Below are positions 58,574 to 64,000 of a stretch of DNA of 64,000 bases, piece after piece (the stretch's first letter is position 1; the number at the start of each line of letters is the position of its first letter). Made by a program: the position numbers and the translations under genes. The stretch spans positions 62,001 to 126,000 of the forward strand of contig JRNA01000017.1 of the NCBI GenBank assembly GCA_000758905.1, in the 5' to 3' direction. The notes beneath the pieces were generated by a model. It searched no databases, was not told where the DNA came from, and saw nothing but the letters and a program-made list of their open reading frames with translations. Source of the DNA: Clostridiales bacterium S5-A14a (GTDB lineage Bacteria > Bacillota > Clostridia > Peptostreptococcales > Anaerovoracaceae).

Positions 58574-61348
58574 CTATTTTTCTTTTCTAGAGATTCTATT
58601 CATAACTAGTGCACCGCATGCTACGAATGCAAGTCCAAAAGCATAAAGCATATTCATTCCGTTATCACCAGTGCTTGGTCCTGCATTTTTAGCTACAGGT
58701 TTCCACTGAGCAACAAATGTATGGCTTCCCTTAACGTTATATGTATCGCCTGGCTGATATTTTGAACCCTTCCAGTAATCGAATACATACCCTTCTCTTG
58801 TAGGTGCCTTTAATATAGTAATGTTGTCTCCCACTCTTGCTTCTACATATTTAACTATATCATTGTCAGCCCATTTGCCACCGTTTGCATCGAATTTGAC
58901 TATTATTAGTCCGTTTCCTGGATTTGTTCCAGCATTGCCTGGAGTTTGTGATCCAGGTTGACCAGGTGTCTGCCCAGGATTTTCTGGATTTCCGCCAGGT
59001 GTGTTTCCATTATTAGGGTTTTCTGTTCCTGGTGTTTCATTTCCAGTGTTTGAAGTATCTCCTCCTGGAGTTGGCTTAGCTTTCCAGATGGCTTTGATAA
59101 CGGTATCCTTGTCAGCCTTGATCTTGGTTCCTGGTGCAACCTTCTCACCATTAACTTCCCAAGTATCAAACTCTTGGGTGTCATCTGGAGCTTTAAAAGC
59201 GTTAGGCAACACCGTGTAATCACTACCCTTATCTACGGTTTCAGCTTTCATTTCGCCACTTCCACCGTTAGCATCGTAGCTCACCTTGACCTGATGTTTC
59301 TTCCAGACGGCTTTCACCGTGGTGTCCTTGTTAACGGTAATCTCGGTGCCTGCAGCTACCTCTTTGCCGTCGACTTCCCAAGCTTTAAACTCCTGGTTTG
59401 CCGGGGCTTCGAATGTATTATCCAAAATCTTGTATTTTGAACCCTTGTTGAGCTCCTTGCCATCCATTTCGCCGGTGCCTTTGTTGGCATCGTAGCTCAC
59501 AGTGGCAGTTTCGAGCTTCTTGCTTTCCTCAACTGAATCGAGCTTATCGGTGTCACCATCAAGCCCACCATTATCTTTTGCGGTTGCCTTGATGGTTCCA
59601 GCGAGTTCGACGTCTTCGACACTCAGCGTTATCACACCGGTGTCCGCGTCAACGCCAGTTCCGCTCCATTTATTGGTTTGCAAATCTCGCGTTGCAGTGA
59701 CGGTTTTCTCCGCTCCAGAATTATCTTTATAGGTAATCGTGTAAGACAGCAAGTCGGTATCATCACCGGGATCTTTATAAGCCGGTGGAGTAATGGTGAC
59801 TTTGCCGGTATCCGTATCTACCTTAATCGCAGGAGATTTGGGTGCGATATTTTTCAGCAGATCTTTGGCCGGAATTGTTATTTTTGGTTCAGCTCCTTCT
59901 GTTATCTTAACTGAACCATCATCATTTTTTTTCGGAACAAAGTTTCCATCATTGTCCCAATCACCTGCTACATCACTACCGCTAAATATCTTAACATTTC
60001 CGCTGTCATCAATTTGTATAACTGCCGGGACTCCCTCCCAGTCTCCAGTTCCGTTTGGTAGTTTAGATGTGCCATCTACTATATATGCTTTTCTTATAGC
60101 AGCATCAATTTCTTTTTTTTCGTTAGCTGTTAGTTTTCTTGGGTCTCTAACTTCTTTTTTTTCTACTTTTACCGGTTTAACAGTTGTTGTGGAACAAGAC
60201 TTGAATTTATGGGGTTCTTTTACAGAAACGCCAACTATTTGGTCGAGAGTTAAACTATCCTTATTTTGTTCTTGTAAAGCATAGGAAAAAGTTCCATCGC
60301 TTTCTACTTTTACCTCTATCGGTTTAGATGAATCTTTGTCAATTTTACATCCTTTGTCAGTACAAAAGTCTCCTGATTTCTCCTTTTTAACATTAATGAT
60401 TACTTGTACTTTTATGTCGTCAAAAGGTCCCGGTCCGGGCAGTTTTCCCTTAATTACATTGTCTACAACTGTAATACTGCCAATCTCAGGTGATCTTGAG
60501 GTTTCTGTAACTTGTTTTATTTTTAAATTTGTAGCTTCAACTTTGCCTGATGTCGAATCGTCAGTATAGGTTACTTCATAATAAGCATGGGCAATGCCAT
60601 CAACAGAAAAATCAACTGATTTGATATCCCCTACGATTTCAGTGTTTGCATCTTTCAACATCTTAACAGCTTCTGCTTGTTCATCTTCATTAACTATATT
60701 TGATGATGTTTGTTCTATCCAAATTTCACCTGTAGGCATTGTAAGAGTAACTGTAGATGCCTTAGATGGTTGTGCCTCTGCAATTACCTCCGATGATTTA
60801 TCTTCATATATTTGTTGGTAGACTGTTACCGTATCGCCTTCTTCAACTTTTTTTCCTTCAGGTAATTTTACTGACCATTTTGTTCCACTTGTAGGTGTAA
60901 CAGAAAGAGTGGCTTTTACTGTGCCATCTTTACCCTTTAATGTTACATGGACTGTCGCTATTATAGTCTTTTTATTAACTTTATCTCTATATTTAGCTAG
61001 ATTGCCTCCGGAAATAGTCGTGTCATCGTAAAAGACTTTGTCAATTGTCGGTGCCTTAACCTCAATTTGCGTAACCGCCTCGTTAACAATCTCTGGTCCA
61101 ATCTCTAGACCATCGCCCTGTTCGTCATCAAATATTGTCTTAGGCGTTTCCGCATTAGAATTTGTAGCTTCATCTGCCTTTACTTCAGCATCTTTTGTTG
61201 TATCAAGATTTGGCTGGAAGTCATTTGCATTTACGACAGGTGCTAACAATGACAACATAATCATAAATGAAAGTAGCCCAACTGAGAACTTCTTGGTCAT
61301 ACCAATGTTCTCCCTAAATACGTTTATAAATTTTGTTTTTAATTTCAT
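58574..61348 (-). CDS. Large secreted, wall-anchored mosaic protein with InlB-type B-repeats
   Basis: A 924-residue surface protein. Extended signal peptide (FSVGLLSFMIMLSLLAPVVNA, ~21-41), Ig-like or beta modules in the first ~610 residues, a helical module KLTANEKKEIDAAIRKAY, two adjacent Listeria-Bacteroides B-repeats (~615-683 and 684-758; VSYDANGGSGEM, FDTWEVNGEKVAPGTKI), a Pro/Gly/Asn/Thr linker (~760-814), a third B-repeat (FDANGGKW, REGYVFDYWKGS), and a C-terminal sorting signal GPSTG (~890), hydrophobic stretch and RISRKEK. The sorting motif is not LPxTG. Likely an adhesin; ligand unknown. Confidence 0.85.
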   Translation of the reverse strand: MKLKTKFINVFRENIGMTKKFSVGLLSFMIMLSLLAPVVNANDFQPNLDTTKDAEVKADEATNSNAETPKTIFDDEQGDGLEIGPEIVNEAVTQIEVKAPTIDKVFYDDTTISGGNLAKYRDKVNKKTIIATVHVTLKGKDGTVKATLSVTPTSGTKWSVKLPEGKKVEEGDTVTVYQQIYEDKSSEVIAEAQPSKASTVTLTMPTGEIWIEQTSSNIVNEDEQAEAVKMLKDANTEIVGDIKSVDFSVDGIAHAYYEVTYTDDSTSGKVEATNLKIKQVTETSRSPEIGSITVVDNVIKGKLPGPGPFDDIKVQVIINVKKEKSGDFCTDKGCKIDKDSSKPIEVKVESDGTFSYALQEQNKDSLTLDQIVGVSVKEPHKFKSCSTTTVKPVKVEKKEVRDPRKLTANEKKEIDAAIRKAYIVDGTSKLPNGTGDWEGVPAVIQIDDSGNVKIFSGSDVAGDWDNDGNFVPKKNDDGSVKITEGAEPKITIPAKDLLKNIAPKSPAIKVDTDTGKVTITPPAYKDPGDDTDLLSYTITYKDNSGAEKTVTATRDLQTNKWSGTGVDADTGVITLSVEDVELAGTIKATAKDNGGLDGDTDKLDSVEESKKLETATVSYDANKGTGEMDGKELNKGSKYKILDNTFEAPANQEFKAWEVDGKEVAAGTEITVNKDTTVKAVWKKHQVKVSYDANGGSGEMKAETVDKGSDYTVLPNAFKAPDDTQEFDTWEVNGEKVAPGTKIKADKDTVIKAIWKAKPTPGGDTSNTGNETPGTENPNNGNTPGGNPENPGQTPGQPGSQTPGNAGTNPGNGLIIVKFDANGGKWADNDIVKYVEARVGDNITILKAPTREGYVFDYWKGSKYQPGDTYNVKGSHTFVAQWKPVAKNAGPSTGDNGMNMLYAFGLAFVACGALVMNRISRKEK

Positions 61349-61424
61349 TTTGTCCTTCCCCTTAACATTCTATGTGAAATCTACCCTAATCATATCTTTT
61401 TAACTCTATATTTTAACTATGCCC

Positions 61425-61453
61425 ATTATATCACATTTCTAACTCATTGTTAA
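61425..61453 (-). promoter_or_regulatory. Promoter of the surface protein gene
   Basis: Minus strand: -35 TTAACA (61448-61453), 17-bp spacer, -10 TATAAT (61425-61430). Confidence 0.7.
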
Positions 61454-61465
61454 ATTTTTTTATCA

Positions 61466-61921
61466 TCATGAAAATACCGCAAATCCGCCGTAGGTTATGA
61501 CTGACACTAATGTTCCAGCAATTATCACTCCAACGGTTATTGCGGGCAGTGACCTTCTCATCCTTATGTCCAAAACAGTTGCAACCAGTGCGCCTGTCCA
61601 CGCTCCTGTTCCAGGAAGTGGTATGGCAACAAGTATGATCAGACCGATAATTTCGTACTTATCTACTATGCCCTTTTTACTTTTTGCTCTTGATTCGAGC
61701 TTTTCGACAATATTTTCAAAGCCTGGGCTGATTTTTCTCATCCAAAGAAAAACCTTCCTAAGAAAAAGAAGGATGAACGGAATAGGTATTAAATTTCCAA
61801 TAATGGCGCATGTCAGGGCTTGCTTCACGGTAATCCCTGCAGCCACACCGAACGGAATCGCTCCTCTTAATTCTATAACTGGCACCATTGCCATAAGCAT
61901 CGTCGAAAAAAATATCTTCAT
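61466..61921 (-). CDS. Small multidrug export family protein (COG2426)
   Basis: A ~151-residue membrane protein with about four segments. The family pattern is PVIELRGAIPFGVAAG near the N terminus and LVAIPLPGTGAWTGALVATV in the second half. The family name is historical; no transport function is established. The ATG at 61921 follows a GAGG site; a TTG three codons earlier (61930) is an alternative. It is driven by a promoter module nearly identical to that of nfeD. Confidence 0.85.
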   Translation of the reverse strand: MKIFFSTMLMAMVPVIELRGAIPFGVAAGITVKQALTCAIIGNLIPIPFILLFLRKVFLWMRKISPGFENIVEKLESRAKSKKGIVDKYEIIGLIILVAIPLPGTGAWTGALVATVLDIRMRRSLPAITVGVIIAGTLVSVITYGGFAVFS

Positions 61922-61956
61922 TTGCCTCAAACCACCGTTAACTTAATTCTACTATG

Positions 61957-62017
61957 ATTATATTTTATAACAAAATACCTTGCAAGGAAAATATTTTGTA
62001 AATAATTTCACAAAAGG
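61957..62017 (-). promoter_or_regulatory. Promoter of the small exporter in duplicated module B
   Basis: Minus strand: -35 TTGCAA (61980-61985), 17-bp spacer, -10 TATAAT (61957-61962). Nearly identical over ~60 bp to 58356-58415. Confidence 0.78.
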
Positions 62018-62019
62018 GC

Positions 62020-62060
62020 TTGACAAATCCACTTCGTTACCTTATGCTAACTATAGTCAG
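62020..62060 (+). promoter_or_regulatory. Promoter and candidate operator of the DUF2325 operon
   Basis: -35 TTGACA (62020-62025), 17-bp spacer, -10 TATGCT (62043-62048). The -10 overlaps an imperfect palindrome CTAACTATAGTCAG (62047-62060); another GCTAAC lies 30 bp later. The half-site CTAAC resembles DtxR-type iron boxes, but this is only suggestive. A hairpin CTCGCT/AGCGAG follows at 62102-62116. Confidence 0.55.
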
Positions 62061-62143
62061 CTAGTAAGCGCAGGCTAACTTTATTGCGCATGTAGACTGA
62101 ACTCGCTATTAGCGAGATTTTAATATTAGTTTTAGGAGGTTTT

Positions 62144-62428
62144 ATGAGTATCGTAATAATTGGTGGTAATGATTGTATGGTATGTAAGTACAAGAATCTT
62201 TGCAAGGATTACAATTGTGAAGCTAAGGTTTTTACGCAGATGAAGGGAACGATGAGGAATAGAATAGGCAATCCCGATCTTTTGGTGTTGTTTACAAATA
62301 CAGTCTCTCATAAGATGGTTAGGGTTGCGACTAGTGAGGCAAAGGCCTCAAATCTGGCAATTGAGAGATGCCACTCAAGTTCACTTTCTGCACTTAAGAA
62401 CATCCTTGATAAGCATGTTCAAGCCTAG
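62144..62428 (+). CDS. DUF2325-family cysteine-containing protein
   Basis: A 94-residue protein of the DUF2325 type: starts SIVIIGGNDCMVCKYKNLC and has the DLLVLFTNTVSHKMVR block. Cysteines C11, C14, C20 and C25 form a CxxC-x5-C-x4-C cluster that could bind a metal or iron-sulfur centre; a fifth lies in ERCHSS. Function unknown. GGAGG precedes the ATG. It leads an operon with a DUF3793 protein and a flavodoxin, which suggests redox or iron-limitation use. Confidence 0.82.
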   Translation: MSIVIIGGNDCMVCKYKNLCKDYNCEAKVFTQMKGTMRNRIGNPDLLVLFTNTVSHKMVRVATSEAKASNLAIERCHSSSLSALKNILDKHVQA

Positions 62429-62437
62429 GAGATAAAG

Positions 62438-63010
62438 ATGTCTGAGTATCAAATAATTAAGCATTGTGCTCCCACCCTTGCGGGGCTGAAAACTGGGAGT
62501 TTGATCCGCGTAAGATTATCCGATCTCGATGAATTTAATGCGAGCATCCGTGCAATGAGTAAAAAACTTAACAACAAGGGAATTTACATCTTGCCGCTAA
62601 TTTCCTTTAAGTCCTTTGTTTTGTTGTACATTTTCAGACCGTCAAGTTTGGCGAAAATTCTTAGCAATTCGAGTGCGCTAAATCTACTTGAAGAGCTGCA
62701 CTATGATGTTTCTTCAATCGGAGGGCTTCTTAGATCGCTAAAATCCAGGCTTGAGTCATATGCAAATAACGATGATTTTCCGCATGAAATTGGCTTTTTC
62801 CTCGGATATCCTTCGGAAGATGTGATTTCTTTCTTCGAGAACAAAGGGAAGAATTATCTTTTGAGCGGGCCTTGGAAGGTCTACCATGACGTCTGTTCGG
62901 CAAAGTGTTTATTTGATAAGCATAAAAAATGCACAAATATATACTGTAAATGTTACAATGCCGGCATATCACTAGAAAGATTGGCAGTTTCAGGGAAGCA
63001 TTTTATGTAA
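62438..63010 (+). CDS. DUF3793-family protein
   Basis: A 190-residue protein matching the DUF3793 pattern: an early HCAPTLAGLKTGSLI segment, then HEIGFFLGYPSEDVISFF, the block GPWKVYHDVCSAK, and a cysteine-rich end (C-x12-C-x4-C-x3? spacing approximate: DKHKKCTNIYCKCYNAG). No known enzyme fold is obvious. AGGAG lies eight bases before the ATG and 10 nt separate it from the DUF2325 gene. The family is often beside flavodoxins in Clostridia, as here; function unknown. Confidence 0.85.
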   Translation: MSEYQIIKHCAPTLAGLKTGSLIRVRLSDLDEFNASIRAMSKKLNNKGIYILPLISFKSFVLLYIFRPSSLAKILSNSSALNLLEELHYDVSSIGGLLRSLKSRLESYANNDDFPHEIGFFLGYPSEDVISFFENKGKNYLLSGPWKVYHDVCSAKCLFDKHKKCTNIYCKCYNAGISLERLAVSGKHFM

Positions 63011-63013
63011 ATT

Positions 63014-63037
63014 TCAATGAAAATGAAAATGAAAATC
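63014..63037 (+). repeat. Short GAAAAT repeats between the DUF3793 and flavodoxin genes
   Basis: Four near-copies of a six-base GAAAAT unit follow the DUF3793 stop, in the spacer before the flavodoxin ribosome site. Confidence 0.75.
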
Positions 63038-63072
63038 AAAATTGAGTCTGATTGCCAAAAGGAGGAGAAACT

Positions 63073-63489
63073 ATGAAAAATATTGCTATTGTTTATTGGA
63101 GTGGTACAGGCAACACTAAAATTATGGCTGAATCCATCAAAGAAGGTGCTGGAGATTCGGCAAAATTATTTGCTGCTGAAGAATTCAGTGCAGATATGAT
63201 AGATGATTTCGACGCGGTTGCTCTGGGATGCCCATCAATGGGTGCAGAAGAACTTGAATCAGACGTATTCAGACCTCTTTGGGAAGAACTTGTACCAAAG
63301 CTATCAGGAAAGTCAGTGGCGCTTTTTGGCTCATATGGCTGGGGAGATGGCGAATGGATGAGATTATGGGAAGAAGAGGCTAATGAAGCTGGAATCGAAC
63401 TTGCTCACCCTGCTCTGATTGTGCACGAAACACCTGACCAGGAAGGCATGGACGAATGCCGCTCTCTCGGTGAAAGTCTATCTTTCTAA
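63073..63489 (+). CDS. Flavodoxin
   Basis: A 138-residue FMN electron carrier. The phosphate loop WSGTGNT is near residues 10-16, the FMN-ring loops are CPSMGAEELE and GSYGWGDGEW, and the C-terminal block MDECRSLGESL closes the fold. Flavodoxins replace ferredoxins when iron is scarce. The start at 63073 is chosen because GGAGG lies upstream with good spacing; an earlier ATG at 63052 does not fit. Confidence 0.93.
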   Translation: MKNIAIVYWSGTGNTKIMAESIKEGAGDSAKLFAAEEFSADMIDDFDAVALGCPSMGAEELESDVFRPLWEELVPKLSGKSVALFGSYGWGDGEWMRLWEEEANEAGIELAHPALIVHETPDQEGMDECRSLGESLSF

Positions 63490-63566
63490 TTAATTTATCT
63501 TTCCAATTTAGAATATAAGTATTATATAACTTCTTGACAGTTTATAATTATAACTTTTTTCCAAAC

Positions 63567-63607
63567 ATATAGCCGCCCTTCTTTCCGGGCGGCTATATTG
63601 TTTTTTG
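63567..63607 (+). terminator. Terminator of the DUF2325-DUF3793-flavodoxin operon
   Basis: ATATAGCCGCCC, 8-nt loop, GGGCGGCTATAT, then TGTTTTTTG. Twelve perfect pairs. Confidence 0.9.
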
Positions 63608-63647
63608 TTTTGTTCTGAGGGCCGTCTCGTCTAGCCATCTATCACTT

Positions 63648-63671
63648 CGTCAATACGTCAATACGTCAATA
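63648..63671 (+). repeat. Three exact 8-bp tandem repeats before the sbcC stop
   Basis: CGTCAATA repeated three times, followed by related AATCAATC and CATCAG units up to 63692. Confidence 0.85.
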
Positions 63672-63689
63672 AATCAATCCATCAGCCCA

Positions 63690-64000
63690 TCAGACTTGAA
63701 TGGTCACTTTGCTTCCCTTAAAGCTACTCTTTTCTATGCTTATCCCTCTGTCTATTCTTTCACGGAGCTCGTCCACGTGTGAAATTATCCCGACCAGTTT
63801 ATTGCCCTTACTCAAATCTACAAGGCTGTCTACCGCATTTTTCAGAGCAACATTGTCCAATGTGCCAAAGCCTTCATCTATGAACATCGTTTCAATTTGA
63901 ATTCCGCCCGCTGAGTGCTGTATTTCGTCGGCAAAGCCAAGAGCTAAGCAAAGCGATGCCTGGAAAGACTCCCCTCCTGATAATGACTTGGTGCTCCTAT
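63690..64000 (-). CDS. sbcC: SbcC nuclease ATPase subunit, C-terminal end (cut by window edge)
   Basis: The frame continues to the right edge. It encodes the C-terminal ATPase lobe: signature STKSLSGGESFQASLCLALG, then AGGIQIETMFIDEGFGTLD (Walker B and D-loop) and GNKLVGIISHVDEL with the H-loop His. This is the diagnostic end of SbcC, the partner of SbcD in cutting DNA hairpins and ends. Only the last 102 codons are in the window. Confidence 0.93.
   Translation of the reverse strand, partial: RSTKSLSGGESFQASLCLALGFADEIQHSAGGIQIETMFIDEGFGTLDNVALKNAVDSLVDLSKGNKLVGIISHVDELRERIDRGISIEKSSFKGSKVTIQV

Follow-up and report, generated by a model that had tools for sequence, protein, structure and literature searches.

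The operon and its promoter

A flavodoxin gene preceded by the genes of two proteins from the uncharacterised families DUF2325 and DUF3793 raises two questions: which signal controls such an operon, and what do the two additional proteins contribute to it? The operon was analysed in a window of 64,000 nucleotides from the genome of Clostridiales bacterium S5-A14a, and positions given without a contig or locus refer to this window. The order promoter, DUF2325, DUF3793, flavodoxin and terminator, proposed in the initial annotation, agrees with the open reading frames, the Pfam matches and the motif positions, all on the forward strand. The promoter (62020..62048) is composed of the -35 element TTGACA (62020-62025), a 17-nt spacer and the -10 element TATGCT (62043-62048). 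The first gene (62144..62428) encodes a DUF2325 protein of 94 aa (PF10087, E 7e-34, 116.3 bits against a curated cut-off of 33.6, covering profile positions 1-94 of 94) and the second gene (62438..63010) a DUF3793 protein of 190 aa (PF12672, E 1e-51, 175.4 bits against a curated cut-off of 25.1, profile positions 1-166 of 167); each family is represented by a single gene in the genome. The third gene (63073..63489) encodes a short-chain flavodoxin of 138 aa (PF00258, E 6e-16, 59.3 bits against a cut-off of 25). In this protein the FMN phosphate loop (T/S-x-T-G-N-T) is present as SGTGNT, the TIGR01753 score of 120 is slightly below the cut-off of 123, and the closest PDB entry is 2fz5, followed by the group 1fln/2fox/5nll. 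The ribosome-binding sites of the operon are good, with AGGAGG at 62134 and 63060, and a strong intrinsic terminator (63567..63598), made of a 12-bp stem followed by TGTTTTTTGT, ends the transcription unit.

The gap between the DUF3793 and flavodoxin genes contains a short run of ATGAAA-like units (63018-63040). On the reverse strand, positions 58574-61348 of the window encode a cell-surface protein of 924 aa that carries Listeria-Bacteroides repeats and weakly matches a sortase-anchor profile. The leader of the operon, between the second operator described below and the ribosome-binding site of the DUF2325 gene, includes a weak terminator-like hairpin, CTCGCTATTAGCGAG followed by ATTTTAAT (62102..62116, forward strand), which perhaps has no role at all. 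Rfam gave no match in 61300-64000, and an RNA leader or riboswitch was dropped on this basis.

The initial annotation had recognised an imperfect palindrome with CTAAC half-sites, GCTAACTATAGTCAGC, over the -10 element. This palindrome exists at that place, yet conservation points to another register, in which its first CTAAC forms the right half-site of a GTTAG-N6-CTAAC box beginning 11 nt further upstream. GCTAACTATAGTCAGC was accordingly rejected as operator; two boxes are present in the conserved register. The full motif is the 18-bp palindrome aGTTAGc-N4-gCTAACt. Operator O1 (CGTTACCTTATGCTAACT, 62035..62052) spans the -10 element and has the core GTTAC-N6-CTAAC with one core mismatch, in addition to an outer position occupied by C instead of A/G. 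Operator O2 (AGTAAGCGCAGGCTAACT, 62063..62080), with the core GTAAG-N6-CTAAC and likewise one core mismatch, sits just 3' of the expected transcription start, at a centre-to-centre distance of 28 bp from O1. A position weight matrix applied to the 64-kb window ranked O1 and O2 as the two best positions (scores of 15.9 and 13.6), the next best position reaching 2.5. When the 204-nt intergenic region was shuffled 20,000 times with a Markov model, no shuffle contained two boxes and 0.98% contained at least one. When location is ignored, two matches with one mismatch are unremarkable in the whole window (shuffle mean of 1.09), so the boxes are significant through their joint placement in one promoter and their recurrence in relatives, not through the whole-window count. 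The promoter of the first feo cluster in the same genome is built alike, with boxes directly behind its elements (TTGACA-17-TATGAT, then ACTAACACAAGGTTAGCACGTACTAAC). The search for a Fur/PerR-like box in the operon promoter returned a best match with four mismatches to a TGATAATNATTATCA-like Fur box, and control of this promoter through a Fur box was dismissed accordingly. Comparative genomics, detailed below, strongly argues for a DtxR-type metal operator in the promoter.

Distribution of the operator and candidate regulator

The regulon of the source genome was compiled from pattern searches for the box. Eleven exact boxes were detected, against two for the reversed control, and all are intergenic, 18-128 nt upstream of a gene. 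Both feo operons of the genome are preceded by an exact box: the cluster feoA-feoA-feoB-(small Cys-rich protein)-DtxR on the one hand and, on the other hand, two ABC transporter genes with a second feoA-feoB, which apparently form a single operon (L036, box at G000:C5:3185). Other targets of exact boxes include ABC and TetR genes, a methyltransferase, a hydrolase and secreted proteins. Four exact operators are distributed over 12 kb of TetR regulators, ABC gene pairs and a methyltransferase (L095, G000:C14:28834-40832), a cluster that is possibly an island for iron or siderophore transport. Another lies 68 nt upstream of the gene of a secreted leucine-rich-repeat protein of at least 1195 aa with an FMN_bind domain (G000:C3:57838; L090:3414-7001), which suggests an extracellular flavoprotein under iron control. 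A one-mismatch operator is located 95 nt upstream of the gene of a pyruvate:ferredoxin/flavodoxin oxidoreductase (L102, G000:C19:39171), an enzyme that could feed the flavodoxin.

The same operator recurs across the class. In the DUF3793 neighbourhoods of 38 loci, together with the three loci of the source genome, 48 exact copies of GTTAG-N6-CTAAC were counted, 42 of them at most 500 nt upstream of a DUF3793, DUF2325, flavodoxin, feoA, feoB or DtxR gene. A second set of 80 named genomes (717 kb around DUF3793) contains 123 copies, and 104 of these are upstream of a DUF3793, DUF2325, flavodoxin, feo or DtxR gene. In these 717 kb, the other spacings between half-sites (0-12) give 0-5 copies each and three control patterns 1-4 copies; the spacing of 1, that of the canonical 19-bp DtxR/IdeR box, gives zero copies. 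Of 118 promoters of DUF3793 operons, 100 carry the box, either exact (81) or with one mismatch (19). Two boxes per promoter are frequent, mostly 21-68 bp apart.

The occurrence of the box follows that of a short DtxR protein. In 196 genomes the mean number of boxes is 4.0 with this protein and 0.96 without it (Mann-Whitney p 6e-17, a value that overstates independence because the genomes are related and kinship is uncorrected), and a control pattern gives p 0.58 in the same comparison. A genome of the same family (G097, contigs C1-C29) holds 11 exact operators without DUF3793 or DUF2325, and no clear short DtxR gene was found in it; either the assembly lacks the gene or the box can be recognised by a different protein.

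In the source genome, the Pfam search detected one DtxR-family gene (L035:7157-7516), the last of the first feo cluster (contig C3). It encodes a protein of 120 aa with the domains Fe_dep_repress and Fe_dep_repr_C, both above the Pfam cut-off. The C-terminal SH3-like domain is missing, and the counterpart of Glu83 of the DtxR ancillary site is seemingly lost. The set of metal ligands consists of Met9, Cys100, Glu103 and His104. The 14 aligned sequences all share Cys100, Glu103 and His104, and most have Met at position 9 (Asp in 2 of 14). In the DtxR family, the pair Met and Cys is of the iron type and the pair Asp and Glu is the manganese pattern of MntR. Two Fur-family genes are also present in the genome; a rubrerythrin adjoins the first and a His-rich metal-binding lipoprotein the second. 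By gene context alone, the first is PerR-like and the second Zur-like, so that the DtxR protein was the sole iron-type candidate recovered. We infer that this short protein binds the boxes and senses Fe(II).

A change of operator is observed in other lineages. Among the DUF3793 promoters lacking the DtxR-type box, 6 of 18 contain a Fur box (at most two mismatches, one of them perfect), against 3 of the 100 promoters that bear the box (p 4e-4, from related genomes). The DUF2325 genes located apart from DUF3793 have a DtxR box upstream at two loci (L189, L190) and a perfect or near-perfect Fur box at three others (L193, L197, L198). In one locus, DUF2325, feoA, feoB, a small Cys-rich protein, flavodoxin and DUF3793 follow one another downstream of perfect Fur boxes (L191:5059-9358); in another one, flavodoxin, DUF3793, DUF2325, feoB and feoA adjoin DtxR (L042). 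Both DUF families are linked to iron-type operators in many genera. Nothing argues more strongly for the membership of these genes in an iron-starvation response than their placement under two unrelated iron regulators in different lineages; judged from their genomic setting, DUF3793 and DUF2325 look like core parts of that response in the clostridia.

The DUF2325 and DUF3793 proteins

A cysteine cluster CxxC-x5-C-x4-C had been pointed out in the DUF2325 protein. The spacing is correct (C11, C14, C20 and C25), but the four cysteines are not conserved. In an alignment of 35 sequences, C14 is replaced by Arg in 29 and only C20 is invariant; in a second alignment of nine sequences, C11 is replaced by Arg in seven. 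It is therefore unlikely that these four residues form a Fe-S or metal site as a function of the family, and the cluster was rejected as a family-wide metal site. The structural model of DUF2325 (pLDDT of 89.1) has the topology beta-alpha-beta-beta-alpha-beta-alpha, a predicted small alpha/beta fold of the Rossmann/receiver-like type. The search with this model recovered generic Rossmann, receiver and PTS-IIB-like matches, none at E <= 0.001. Domain fusions were set aside as a clue to function: DUF2325-like stretches do occur within frames of up to about 616 aa in four genomes (G011, G049, G112 and G191), but as weaker matches. Tentatively, DUF2325 may be a small alpha/beta protein, redox-active or nucleotide-binding, of the iron/oxidative-stress response.

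The DUF3793 family is more constrained in its sequence, with 26 invariant positions in an alignment of 62 sequences, including the motifs FPHEIG-FLGYP--DV and W-x2-Y. C10 is found in most and C165 in all members of the nearer set, but neither is kept throughout the more distant members. The AlphaFold2 model has a pLDDT of 94.6; its best Foldseek match is no better than E 0.21, and the sequence gave no convincing match against the PDB. This combination of a confident model and no PDB match makes DUF3793 a good structural target. One conceivable role, which we put forward with reserve, is that of a ligand-binding partner or maturation factor acting with the flavodoxin. A bolder proposal, to be taken as equally speculative, is that DUF3793 has a fold unrepresented in the PDB and is a new iron-sparing factor, for example one that loads, docks or steers the flavodoxin and thereby allows pyruvate:ferredoxin oxidoreductase and enzymes related to it to run without ferredoxin, under a previously undescribed DtxR-type operator system that replaces Fur in many gut Clostridia.

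Probable low-iron control of the flavodoxin operon

The operon is most probably an iron-starvation (iron-sparing) operon repressed by Fe(II)-DtxR at O1 and O2, in which the flavodoxin takes the place of ferredoxin and the DUF pair belongs to the same programme. With plentiful Fe(II), the short DtxR-type repressor would occupy O1 and O2 and shut the promoter, O1 blocking at the -10 box and O2 just beyond the start site. As iron becomes scarce, the repressor would release the promoter, the FMN-based flavodoxin would then replace ferredoxin, and DUF2325 and DUF3793 would be made alongside as parts of the same low-iron programme. The iron-limitation system with a DtxR-type operator and two parts of unassigned function, as first suggested for this locus, is supported at the level of sequence by the conservation of the box, the feo/DtxR context, the type of flavodoxin and the exchange with Fur boxes. 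The binding, the metal and the direction of the response (expression in low iron) would follow those of the DtxR family and of the clostridial flavodoxins that have been measured: a flavodoxin of C. difficile is induced in low iron and has a Fur box (PMC6311696), and flavodoxin is up 14-fold in iron-limited C. pasteurianum (PMC5395762). Several observations weigh against this reading: the core mismatches of O1 and O2, the boxes of G097 without a clear short DtxR gene, the missing SH3-like domain and apparently lost Glu83 counterpart of the regulator, and 25 of the 80 named loci in which DUF3793 has neither flavodoxin nor DUF2325 as a direct neighbour.

The metal sensed might instead be manganese or another one, with an MntR-like regulator reading the box and the operon answering a shortage of manganese or of metals in general. 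Among solved structures, MntR proteins (E 1e-22) come closer to the short DtxR protein than DtxR/IdeR (E 1e-18) do; MntR of Bacillus (PDB 1on1/1on2) is the best PDB match of the short protein and has the same short two-domain build. The Asp found at position 9 in two of the 14 aligned sequences is that of MntR, and an Nramp-like transporter gene follows a DUF2325 gene in one genome (G168, L190). However, Cys100, which is invariant, aligns with Glu99 of the solved MntR, position 9 is Met here and in most of the other sequences, the regulon contains feoAB and flavodoxin, which are iron-response genes, in place of the manganese regulon of Bacillus, and Fur boxes take over at these genes in lineages that lack the box. 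We consider this alternative improbable. Slightly more improbable still is a PerR-like redox or oxygen-stress operon, in which DUF2325 and the flavodoxin would guard against reactive oxygen species and iron would act indirectly. An argument for it comes from Campylobacter jejuni, where Cj1384, a Cys-rich protein annotated as DUF2325 by the authors, is reported as regulated by PerR/RacRS, is encoded beside katA and is induced 352-fold in light stress (PMC9426514); DUF2325 is also included in a list of possible secondary cargos of encapsulins (PMC6934571). The operon analysed here has, in contrast, an iron-type operator and a flavodoxin. No PerR-type box was recognised in its promoter, where the best Fur/PerR-like match has four mismatches, the conserved box is common to the feo operons, and none of the 22 sites found in the genome is located at the rubrerythrin gene.

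A last alternative concerns solely what the two DUF proteins do and can stand beside the regulatory half of the low-iron reading. The three proteins could act separately and be co-transcribed for a shared need in low iron, DUF3793 or DUF2325 serving feo uptake or acting elsewhere. We regard it as a serious contender, if not quite an even one. DUF2325 is found beside feoB without flavodoxin or DUF3793 at two loci (L194 and L195), and DUF3793, near feoAB in several cases, stands without a neighbouring flavodoxin at 35 of the 80 named loci. Against separate roles, flavodoxin is the most frequent direct neighbour of DUF3793 (45 of 80 loci), always downstream and on the same strand. DUF2325 precedes DUF3793 in 33 loci, and the three genes occur in the order of the window in 23.

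The DtxR/IdeR iron regulons of Actinobacteria use TTAGGTTAGCCTAACCTAA boxes. The clostridial system has in common with DtxR/IdeR of Actinobacteria the GTTAG/CTAAC half-sites and the Met and Cys-x2-Glu-His ligands of the regulator. It differs in the distance between half-sites (6 bp instead of 1), in the regulator (120 aa, without SH3-like domain), in the regulon (feo, flavodoxin, DUF2325 and DUF3793) and in the phylum. The flavodoxins fldX of Clostridioides difficile and fld1 (CA_C0587) of C. acetobutylicum are likewise iron-repressed and induced in low iron, with feo alongside (PMC6311696, PMC5050335), whereas the operon of the window has a DtxR-type palindrome instead of a Fur box, and DUF2325 and DUF3793 in addition. 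Iron-regulated flavodoxins and DtxR regulons are already known. The literature searched, with most subscription papers and regulon databases outside its scope, yielded neither a clostridial DtxR regulon with a flavodoxin nor a paper linking DUF3793 and flavodoxin. As far as this search extends, three things are new: an operator whose half-sites are 6 bp apart, its broad occurrence in clostridia, and the assignment of two uncharacterised families to the iron response.

Among the major inhabitants of the gut and the rumen are Lachnospiraceae and Oscillospiraceae, whose iron sensing is poorly described in the papers searched. The operator, its probable regulator and the list of targets make iron sensing in gut clostridia directly testable. 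DUF2325 and DUF3793 gain a firm physiological context, iron starvation. Fermentation products depend on the switch from ferredoxin to flavodoxin, and a role of the DUF proteins in this switch would bear on them.
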